Shown: positions 3,262 through 27,327 of the stretch, one piece after another
Position numbering within the stretch: position 1 is the first letter of the stretch
Layout: every line of letters begins with the position of its first letter
Source: Arthrobacter sp. Marseille-P9274
GTDB taxonomy: Bacteria; Actinomycetota; Actinomycetes; Actinomycetales; Micrococcaceae
Direction: 5' to 3'
Length of the DNA: 64,000 nt
NCBI RefSeq assembly: GCF_946892675.1
Contig: NZ_CAMPOV010000001.1
Location: 1-64,000, forward strand
Notes under the pieces: model-generated
Told to the model about the DNA's origin: nothing
What the model saw: only the letters and a program-made list of their open reading frames with translations
Database searches by the model: none
Program-made: the position numbers and the translations under genes

Positions 3262-3978
3262 TCAGTCCTCCGGGTCGCGCTGCGAGTCCAGCAGGGGCAG
3301 GTCCGCCGGGGTGACCAGATGCGAGGAGACCGCGTGTTCCACCAGCCGGGCACGCCGGTTGGTGGCCAGCTTGCCGCCGCCCCCTCGCAGGCCGGCGACA
3401 CCGACCCGGTCCAGCTTGTCGCAGACATTGTCCAGCTTCCGGTTGAACTTGGTCATCGGCCAGCCCAGCCGCGCGGCTGCCTGGGTCGACGACGGGATGG
3501 AGCTCAGCCCGGTTCCATCGCGCCGCAGCATCGGCTCGGCCAGCGCCACGATGAGCGCCTTCTGCGAGTCCGTGAAGACCACTGGGCCGATGGTGGTGTC
3601 CCCCACCGAATCCTGCTCGCGCGCCTGCTGCCGGAACGCCGGCGTCTTGACGTGGACGGAAAGTTCGTAGGTCGTCGGCCCGGCCGTGAACACCACGTTG
3701 GTGTGGCTGAAAACCATGGGAATCCGTGCCCCCGGGGCCAGCCAGGCCTGCATCCCGCCGCTGCTGTCCGCGATCGTCGCCGAGATCATCGTTCCGACGT
3801 TCGTCATCCACCAGATGCCGTCGTACCGCGCCAGCTCAAGGAATTTCCGGTGCAGGTACGGATTCTCGTCGATCTCCAGATCGCCCTCGCGGCCGATGCT
3901 GAAGACCCCCTCATCCTTGGCCTCGAACCATTCGCCGCAGAACTCAATGCTGAGTTCGGCTCCGGCAGTGTCCCCCAT
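3262..3978 (-). CDS. FHA-like protein with C-terminal winged-helix-like region
   Basis: The product is 238 aa from the ATG at 3978; an in-frame ATG at 4002 would add eight residues. I prefer 3978 because GGAAGGA precedes it and the first eight residues are polar filler. Residues about 10-110 resemble an FHA fold: [20 protein letters not shown] keeps the GR and the His/Arg region of the phosphothreonine pocket, although the usual SxxH is replaced by YLHRK. Residues about 130-230 are helical and Arg-rich with an HTH-like pattern ([20 protein letters not shown]). It is the last gene of the kinase/phosphatase operon, about 78 bp after the kinase stop. I infer a phospho-reader or DNA-binding output, with moderate confidence. 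Confidence 0.65.
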
Positions 3979-4056
3979 CTTCGTGACTTCCTTCCGTTTC
4001 ATCGTCCGGCCGCTGAGACGGCCGTGCGGCGGGCCCGCCGCATAAACTGTTGCCCG

Positions 4057-27100: not shown

Positions 27101-27327
27101 AAGCCGCCGTCGAGCGTCTTCGACTGGTAGTTGAGGTGGCCCACCAGGCCGGCGCCGTTGTTCGTGACCCAGACGCCGCCGTCGTTCAAATCTACGTCCG
27201 CGGTCGGGAAGCCCTCATAGAACAGGGCCCCGCCCACCACCAGGGCGCTGGCCACGGAAAACGTCGTCGTCGAAGCCAGTGCCCGCTTCCGCCGGCCCTG
27301 CCCAAACAATCCGCTGCCCCAAGCCAT
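21169..27327 (-). CDS. Giant membrane-anchored Ig-like/Fn3 surface protein 2
   Basis: The product is 2,052 aa, from ATG at 27327 with AGGGA six bases upstream. It is a full-length paralogue of the next gene: same signal anchor (about 16-38), same N-terminal domain (DVDLNDGGVWVTN, GLVGHLNYQS, DQ, GNVWLV), an acidic linker (ESEEEDEDSADE), about 11 cadherin/Ig-like repeats and several fibronectin III domains. The last 100 residues differ completely from paralogue 1. They are Gly/Ser/Tyr-rich with cysteines in TRTCMEF, PGDCDGN, STCYIV and the terminal MPRC, so probably a small disulfide-stabilised domain. The shared stalk and different tip suggest duplication followed by divergence of the ligand-binding end. 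Confidence 0.88.
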   Translation of the reverse strand: MAWGSGLFGQGRRKRALASTTTFSVASALVVGGALFYEGFPTADVDLNDGGVWVTNNGAGLVGHLNYQSKTLDGGFVANSAGFDVLQDESTVFMENLDQAMLSPVDVAEMSRDAEQQLPGSADVAFGEEQIAITDRVKGQVFISAAADLGSFSEETAEPVLAGAKGAVAAVAPDDTVVVANPESKEVYTYRVNAEGVPEQVGKDGAENLDKAGDLQIAAVGDKAVVLDAESGTLFLPGGKTVGLGEVRGAKLQQSGAASGFAVIATETELITQPLDGSDATRTSLEAPGVPAAPVQLNGCLHAAWAGSAHYIRDCELPSDDLAQEIKGIGSNAELVFRVNRDVVVLNDVNAGNVWLVLENMQLVDNWSDLIPPEQESEEEDEDSADENPINTLPDRTKENRPPVAQDDQFGVRAGRTTTLAILDNDSDPDGDVLTASLAGDQPSVGEVQSIYDKTGLQIVVDAGASPGRHSFEYEVNDGRGGKDTATVSITVRADGSNEPPQAKRKTTILLEQGKEISQNVLTDWRDPDGDDLFLVGAENTADGDLVRTRPDGLLTFQDVGKTSGKKKVAIQVSDGTDTVDGEITVDVRPPGALAPVANADHFFTTAGQQIQVTPLKNDLDPNGGRLRLAKADAVGKAEVVPDYDAGTIKFSSDTPGTYYLTYVVTNGPASSTGLARVDVGASASEGAPVAVRDVAMLPQNGQVLVDVLANDADPAGGVLVVQGVETGSGDAVSVEVLNHSIMRITDVKGLNQQISIKYTVSNGFASATGEVSIVSVRGPDKLLPPQAENDTATVRAGDVVTVDVLGNDTHPNGDDITLLPELAETVDKADGGIFTAENAVRFIAGPTAKTVYAVYEVVDSAGQKDSAEIRINILPRDDESNSQPAPKNLEARVIAGSTVRIPVPLDGIDPDGDSVFLHGIGRAPEQGAAVAGPNYIDFTASAQGAGTDSFTYVVKDRLGAENTGTVLVGIAPKAENNQNPVALDDGIVIQPGRSVAIDVLKNDSDPDGDMLRLDGNRVVGEPESLEAAADKGRIRFTTPDEDGTVNVRYTVGDGRGGSAVGTVTAEVRRDAPLLAPVARDDRVEPAETKGRTAVDVPVLENDEDPDGVAEEMKVLVNGDYPTASVTSGGQLRVELTESAQLIPYTVRDVDGLQATAVAWVPALGEQYPTLSDTTPVDVVAGEEVTIDLRDRVEVRDGRTPRITEVEKVRAIGTADREWVAGDSTLRYAAAEDYAGRGSITFEVTDGSGPDDPEGLKSTLTVMTNVIPGPEKNVAPEFTTGAVEVAKGEDAVSYDLRPLATDANPEDVEKLEFALEGGAPEGFDVRLDGSVLRVSAGAEVETGASGAVNVSVTDGRSDKVMSRVAVSALASTRPLPVANDDEVPDAVQGEPVTVPVLANDVNPFPETPLEIMSATAGAGGTARVDGDAVVVTPGADFSGTMTVEYTVQDKTQEGSRQATGTVSLVVKGRPEAPTTPLVDSVRDETVVLSWGAPPDNGEPITAYRVTGTGGFSQECRSTTCTLTGLVNDREYTFSVVAVNGVGESDPSAESAVARPDVRPETPGAPQLKFGDKALDVSWEPPVNNGSAIESYTLEISPAPPSGQLQKSGLTGTSYKWEGLENGQAYTVRVQAHNKAPEPSEFSAYSAAEVPAGPPAAAGAPTTERVESVGNQSQLKVSWSAPDNNGGEINDYTVREYQGGSLKRTLPPVTGTSQTITAPNSETDYTYTVTARNKAGDGEASPQSNARRAVGAPEAPTSVSLKEANTGGAGRSVTVSFDQLTAAQRNGARAGEVSYRATFSDGRSMAINSGQTVSGFANGTNLTAQVTAVANSDGASYNSAPSARSNAANPYGAPGTPSASGQGQSGETTNPQVTLRWGPPNTATHDVAKLQINIDGKGWENVAIGSGSRTLNVAHDSSHSIKVRAANTRGTFGAEASASARAGSKPQPKPKTQWDLSVGGSGTTLETRTCMEFRNSLGQNYDGPGDCDGNHWSYPGDSITSTCYIVSGSNRWYYQQSGSRGINNGLLIRGDHVRESGTSRHLNGGQPAGMPRC

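Follow-up and report, generated by a model that had tools for sequence, protein, structure and literature searches.

A PFNA-type gene cluster with giant surface proteins and a putative pseudo-transglutaminase in an Arthrobacter-type genome

The window analysed here, a stretch of 64,000 nucleotides (nt) from contig NZ_CAMPOV010000001.1 of Arthrobacter sp. Marseille-P9274, carries on its minus strand a cluster of ten genes. Two giant surface proteins are encoded together with a MoxR-type ATPase, a DUF58 protein, a membrane protein with a transglutaminase fold (TGM), a Ser/Thr kinase and several other phospho-signalling proteins (Table 1). The genome has 4.78 Mb, and the nearest named record, judged by the N-terminal domain of the giants in a scan of named records, is that of Arthrobacter mangrovi (95% identity). 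The gene order is giant 1, giant 2, moxR, duf58, tgm, rdd-fha, pp2c, fha (split), kinase and an fha/hth-like gene, followed by ligA. The cluster had been delimited in a first-pass annotation made from the sequence alone, whose coordinates and strand are correct and whose protein families (MoxR, DUF58, transglutaminase-fold membrane protein, kinase, PP2C and two giants of about 2,000 amino acids, aa) are confirmed by Pfam. The locus is real, and its eleven proposed genes become ten, as the two frames listed for the fha gene belong to a single gene. The frame break lies near 6500-6554, close by (6220-6430) a 69-bp unit is repeated 3.1 times in tandem with hardly any differences, and the split may be either a true mutation or an assembly error. 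The overlapping stops and starts that were reported run from duf58 to the kinase gene (duf58-tgm -4, tgm-rdd-fha -13, rdd-fha-pp2c -4, pp2c-fha -1 and fha-kinase -4 nt) and do not extend to moxR-duf58 (+20 nt), to kinase-last gene (+54 nt) or to the giants, around which the gaps measure 187, 430 and 235 nt. Similarly, two of the three proposed FHA-type readers are recognised by Pfam, while the product of the last gene matches nothing in Pfam up to E 1 and no NCBIfam model; this gene is strongly conserved across the 23 loci where it was called. A promoter scan gave one promoter-like site, in the gap between giant 2 and moxR, against 0.3 expected by shuffling and with a consensus of the E. coli type only; with 6 terminator-like sites against 7.1 expected, the promoter and terminator scan as a whole was uninformative.

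Table 1. Genes of the cluster, with positions in the window and the basis of each assignment
Feature	Positions	Strand	Length (aa)	Basis and remarks
Giant 1	21169..27327	-	2,052	Pfam, AlphaFold2 (AF2), Foldseek, block identities
Giant 2	14670..20738	-	2,022	Pfam; architecture as giant 1
MoxR-type AAA+ ATPase	13460..14434	-	324	Pfam AAA_3 (E 1.2e-63), AAA_lid_2
DUF58 protein	12069..13439	-	456	Pfam; DUF58 the sole domain
Putative pseudo-transglutaminase, TgpA type (tgm)	9532..12072	-	846	Pfam TgpA_N and Transglut_core, AF2, Foldseek
RDD membrane domain and FHA domain protein	8333..9547	-	404	Pfam
PP2C-type Ser/Thr phosphatase	7467..8336	-	289	Pfam
FHA protein, two frames in window copy (5740-7467 and 5631-6551)	5631..7467	-		Pfam; single 592-aa frame in relative G002
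Ser/Thr kinase	4057..5634	-	525	Pfam and alignment; a single membrane helix by sequence reading; two conserved Cys in the C-terminal ectodomain
FHA-like and helix-turn-helix-like protein	3262..4002	-	246	Assigned by eye from alignment only

No joint function was known for these families to the first-pass annotation; the same cluster has been published as the PFNA operon of Bifidobacterium, which comprises pkb2, fn3, aaa-atp (MoxR), duf58 and tgm and, in some species, also prpC, a hypothetical gene and fha (PMC8430577). In Bifidobacterium the kinase Pkb2 phosphorylates MoxR, and eight PFNA genes are co-transcribed in one strain, B. longum GT15 (PMC8430577). The window locus is a PFNA-type cluster in an Arthrobacter-type genome, and the cluster type is therefore already known. 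Both share the same gene families, the order fn3-moxR-duf58-tgm, a linked kinase and an FN3-containing giant of some 2,000 aa; the giant of B. longum has 1,994 aa, with FN3 domains near aa 1490-1670 (accessible part of PMC10688814). The Arthrobacter locus differs in that it carries a tandem pair of giants and additionally encodes RDD-FHA and FHA/HTH-like proteins and another FHA protein; its kinase gene lies about 9 kb downstream of moxR, whereas in PFNA it stands directly before fn3. Exactly the published arrangement, kinase-giant-moxR-duf58-tgm with the kinase upstream, is present in nine loci of one family of the genome samples (f39), with pp2c called in four of them. From gene order, giant length and FN3 positions this family is probably Bifidobacteriaceae; the assignment is uncertain because the GC content of its loci, 57-70%, is high for the genus Bifidobacterium. 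Two papers (accessible parts of PMC8430577 and PMC10688814) regard PFNA as occurring in bifidobacteria only, a range much narrower than the one described below, and assign transglutaminase or presumed cysteine-protease activity to its TGM. No report of a PFNA-type cluster in Arthrobacter was found in the openly readable literature, subscription papers lying outside the search. As far as the literature was searched, four findings are new: how widely the cluster occurs, the loss of the catalytic Cys, the propeller at the base of the giants and the co-divergence of propeller and TGM.

Occurrence was assessed with a profile of the first 390 residues of the giants (alignment of 10 sequences, threshold E 0.001), which matched 79 of 149 genomes of the order, 16 of 98 of the class and 12 of 100 of the phylum; the weaker matches, and with them most from the phylum sample, are possibly unrelated. 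The scan of named records, made on the best 80 of 358 relatives and thus mostly on close kin, gave 68 loci, nearly all of Micrococcaceae, with Arthrobacter, Pseudarthrobacter, Paenarthrobacter and Tersicoccus among them. From the genome samples, 92 further stretches of 20 kb around profile matches were taken and their genes called with in-house profiles. A propeller was called in 96 genome-sample loci, and the 92 in which 4.5 kb or more follow the last giant were testable: moxR was present in 81, duf58 in 84, tgm in 86, and all three just downstream of the giant, under a strict rule, in 80. A kinase gene lay within the 20-kb stretch in 69 of these loci, and any of kinase, PP2C or FHA in 85. 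The 48 testable named-record loci agree (moxR 42, duf58 45, tgm 44, all three 41), and the kinase is seen in only 3 of them because the stretches end too early. Counted per genome, the moxR-duf58-tgm triad was found in 67 of 77 (75 testable) and the triad plus kinase in 53. Excluded from these linkage counts were L200, which had no calls at all, and seven loci lacking a propeller call; G089 entered them twice. By reading, the triad is also in order in L125, L175 and L198, beyond the strict count, and divergent in L205 and L206, L144 being ambiguous. Since the same set recurs across the order, the grouping is no accident: the giants and the MoxR, DUF58, TGM and kinase genes are one conserved unit, and giants usually occur together with moxR and the kinase, in agreement with the joint system proposed in the first-pass annotation, which had named the opposite pattern as its refutation. 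Arthrobacter-like loci also occur under the record titles Vibrio cholerae 35D and Sporosarcina beigongshangi (L075 and L114, 70% and 66% GC), probably on contaminating contigs.

The giants show apparently new features at both ends. Pfam finds 11 Big_9 stretches in the giant of 2,022 aa and 10 in that of 2,052 aa, with 3 fn3 stretches in each. Giant 1 starts with an N-terminal membrane helix (read from sequence), continues with a predicted beta-propeller at about aa 45-372 and ends in a variable C-terminal tip at about aa 1801-2052; the N-terminal domains of the two giants share 52% identity. This domain has no NCBIfam model and gave no Pfam match in either giant. The AF2 model of the N-terminal part of giant 1 is a beta-propeller (mean predicted local confidence, pLDDT, 82.8; predicted template-modelling score, pTM, 0.79; aa 1-44 and 376-395 below 50), and the Foldseek matches of the predicted domain are propellers, topped by NirF and an archaeal surface-layer YVTN propeller. 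NirF, BamB and Tako8, all among these matches, are eight-bladed propellers, and we think for this reason that the propeller of the giants has eight blades too. Compared with 20 relatives in blocks of 100 aa, giant 1 keeps a mean identity of 50-71% up to residue 1800, the lowest value being that of the second block of the propeller (50%), and then falls to 51, 36 and 34%; the last 150 aa (34-36%) are the most variable part. A membrane helix and a predicted propeller would form the base, and the fast-changing segment the tip. The open frame of the giants, in 77 strong loci, has a median of 2,070 aa (quartiles 2,027 and 2,127, range 419-2,622). No LPXTG-type C-terminal sortase signal was seen by reading in either giant, the hydrophobic segment being N-terminal instead. 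The weaker locus group includes short propeller proteins of 558-1,277 aa. Proteins of this kind stand in L196-L199 and L204-L208 (558-1,277 aa where called) in other taxonomic families, next to moxR, duf58 and a Cys-less tgm; the 897-aa protein JG095 in L050 resembles them, by eye only, and in L203 a WD40-like repeat protein, also by eye, stands immediately ahead of moxR, duf58 and a tgm without Cys.

The TGM has the layout of TgpA: membrane helices, an extracellular beta-sandwich and transglutaminase-like domain, a further membrane helix and a cytosolic helical domain. Pfam TgpA_N and Transglut_core score above cut-off in the window protein, and its AF2 model (mean pLDDT 82.8, pTM 0.67) has as best Foldseek matches 6g4h and 6g49, both TgpA of Pseudomonas aeruginosa (E 3.8e-11). 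The membrane topology type, the outer-domain fold and the adjacent DUF58 and MoxR are common to the locus, to TgpA and to generic MoxR-DUF58-TgpA loci. TgpA retains its catalytic Cys, and the window protein aligns an Asp opposite it (PDB 6g49). The loss is general: Cys occupies this position in none of 140 locus TGM rows, which are partly redundant (the G089 gene is counted twice, and the named-record and genome-sample sets overlap, e.g. L060/L120) and which were collected by the propeller or, in eleven loci, by overall TGM similarity, not by the catalytic residue. The 133 propeller-linked rows have Asp (81), Ser (20, including the nine f39 loci), Glu (13), Ala (12), Gly (4), Gln (2) or Arg (1), and the 7 rows without a propeller call Asp (3), Ala (2), Val (1) or Ser (1). 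Among 24 comparison TgpA homologues, a subset of all matches made up of the lower-scoring loci of the homologue search plus L002, Cys is found in 21, Ser in 2 and Val in 1, and the three Cys-less rows (L009, L010 and L017) stem from loci also counted among the 140. The catalytic His is present in the window TGM, in 61 of the 133 rows and in 2 of the 7, with other residues elsewhere, and the E and Q neighbouring the catalytic position are invariant across 30 aligned proteins. In a tree of 121 TGM rows one branch (support 100/97, recovered in all 200 bootstrap trees) splits 100 Cys-less from 21 Cys rows. Because Cys is absent from every locus row, the Cys-less rows form one supported branch and the second TgpA homologue of the source genome retains Cys and His, the alignments argue that the loss is old and lineage-wide and no local defect. 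The locus TGM would be a pseudoenzyme in which the TgpA fold is predicted to be retained, and covalent assembly or remodelling of the giants by a transglutaminase-fold enzyme, as the first-pass annotation would allow, becomes doubtful. The openly readable literature, subscription papers again excluded, contains no printed report of this Cys loss.

The giants have diverged together with the rest of the unit. In genomes with several cassettes, the nearest cassette by propeller was also the nearest by TGM in 243 of 286 cases, by DUF58 in 241 and by MoxR in 225 (about 135 expected), and by kinase in 156 of 187 (87 expected); such cassette-by-cassette matching bears out the idea of one unit. Over 85 loci, propeller distances correlate with those of TGM (0.919), DUF58 (0.843) and MoxR (0.726), and over 66 loci with those of the kinase (0.681), values reached by 0 of 500 permutations in each case. 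When the TGM is divided into parts (66 loci), the correlation is 0.888 for the ectodomain, 0.875 for the membrane part and 0.765 for the cytosolic part, the ectodomain exceeding the cytosolic part by 0.129 (5-95% range 0.080-0.177). After correction for MoxR, 0.682 remains for the ectodomain, 0.596 for the membrane part, 0.50 for DUF58, 0.298 for the cytosolic part and -0.007 for the kinase. This pattern is indirect, and it is consistent with a possible contact between propeller and TGM outside or within the membrane.

As regards the signalling proteins, the kinase retains the usual kinase motifs (by reading). Its extracellular region is described as highly variable in the accessible part of the PFNA literature; this holds at the level of sequence, yet an alignment of 25 ectodomains (the window kinase and 24 of the 37 loci with a match) shows a shared core, conserved and with one invariant and one nearly invariant Cys. 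An aspartate found at one position in 14 of 14 comparison DUF58 proteins is absent from the window DUF58. Its loss was considered as a rule of the system and rejected: among the rows listed, the residue is missing from those of Arthrobacter type and retained in many others.

Taken together, these data can be arranged as follows, with confidence that stops just short of even. The locus would encode a trans-envelope receptor or adhesin, with the pseudo-transglutaminase as its docking site and a link to a MoxR-DUF58 machine tuned by the kinase. Each giant would be anchored through its N-terminal membrane helix, with the propeller just outside the membrane and docked on the pseudo-transglutaminase ectodomain; the pseudo-transglutaminase itself, no longer catalytic, may serve as a binding or gating scaffold. 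The roughly ten Ig/cadherin-like and three FN3 domains would make up a stalk that crosses the wall and varies little in length, and the fast-changing tip at its end would meet ligands or surfaces. On the inner side, the cytosolic helical domain of the pseudo-transglutaminase may work with MoxR and DUF58, a putative ATP-driven unit that would set how the complex is assembled or how active it is, and over which the kinase, PP2C and FHA proteins would exert phospho-control. More tentatively still, and with clear reserve, the direction of signalling can be put as inward and the system seen as widespread actinomycete trans-envelope signalling, in which contact or tension at the tip passes through the propeller to the dead enzyme as receptor scaffold and on to a MoxR-DUF58 switch tuned by the Ser/Thr kinase; the bifidobacterial PFNA would then be one late, host-adapted case.

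Several observations weigh against this arrangement. The ectodomain and the membrane part of the TGM differ in their correlation with the propeller by only 0.018 (5-95% range -0.012 to 0.053), and the propeller-TGM co-divergence is partly shared ancestry. Giants are found without moxR, duf58 or tgm nearby in L067, L117 and L118 (named records), L121, L138 (a pair), L148 and the short L209; such giants may depend on a machine encoded at another site of the genome. In five further loci (L072, L078, L086, L127 and L147) a giant-duf58-tgm-kinase group has no moxR called nearby, and these are taken as a second cassette type. Finally, a relation of the kinase ectodomain to FN3 finds no support in Pfam, fn3 reaching at best E 0.069 in 1 of 25 sequences.

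The main rival holds that MoxR-DUF58 and the pseudo-transglutaminase are an assembly machine that folds, exports or matures the giants, the stalk being its product and not a receptor, much as the first-pass annotation suggested and as has been put forward for PFNA. It is rather unlikely, though MoxR proteins have been described as maturation chaperones, such a role for FN3 folding is proposed in the Figure 5 legend of PMC8430577, and giants directly precede moxR-duf58-tgm in most loci. Lone giants exist and, conversely, so do generic MoxR-DUF58-TgpA loci without giants: duf58 stands beside a Cys-type TgpA in 13 of 21 Cys-type comparison loci, which have short flanks and in which giants were sought only in the class scan. 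Besides, the strongest co-divergence is with the outer and membrane parts of the TGM and not with the cytosolic part. MoxR may fold or assemble the giants, and the receptor and assembly readings can both be partly true.

Very improbable is a conflict or defence system akin to the MoxR-vWA beta-propeller ternary systems, in which invaders would be recognised through the pseudoenzyme and the variable tip. Common to both are a MoxR, a vWA-like partner (here DUF58) and a propeller; the window MoxR matches bpMoxR (44.6 bits, cut-off 27), the tip is variable, and the kinase matches several defence kinase models of PADLOC, as any kinase of such type would. Nevertheless, AAA_3 scores far above bpMoxR, and PADLOC gave no match for MoxR, DUF58, TGM, RDD-FHA, FHA-HTH or propeller. 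In the accessible part of PMC7159879, moreover, the propeller is fused to the vWA protein, the systems lie mostly outside actinobacteria and the P-loop variant GXXXTAKS is frequent; in the locus the propeller is on a separate, membrane-anchored outside protein, DUF58 is unfused and the P-loop reads APGTGKT, so membership in these systems was rejected. Sensing of host cytokines by way of cytokine-receptor motifs in the FN3 domains, as published for Bifidobacterium, where FN3 fragments of B. longum are reported to bind TNF-alpha (accessible parts of PMC10688814 and PMC8430577), can be dismissed as a general function and is scarcely credible for this locus, given that the cluster occurs in soil genera and across the order and that the motif WSx[PEDAYSW]S, in raw counts of the C-terminal part of the giants, is present in 8 of 9 giants from probable Bifidobacteriaceae, in 93 of the 159 remaining ones (including 56 of 83 from named records) and in neither window giant.

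The findings point to a widespread surface sensing or adhesion system rather than to a gut-immunity device. If the computation holds, the PFNA-type cluster is common in the order and extends to soil genera, and what has been called its "enzyme" is a pseudoenzyme, which changes which experiments make sense. MoxR-DUF58-TgpA loci are common and poorly understood, and this one, being paired with a surface protein, is a tractable case. In the window, the stretch upstream of giant 1 (27515-29235) encodes a bacterial PH-domain protein and an adenylate-cyclase-like protein; the same pair is upstream of the giants in 55 of the 68 named-record loci and was seen in none of the more distant loci inspected.
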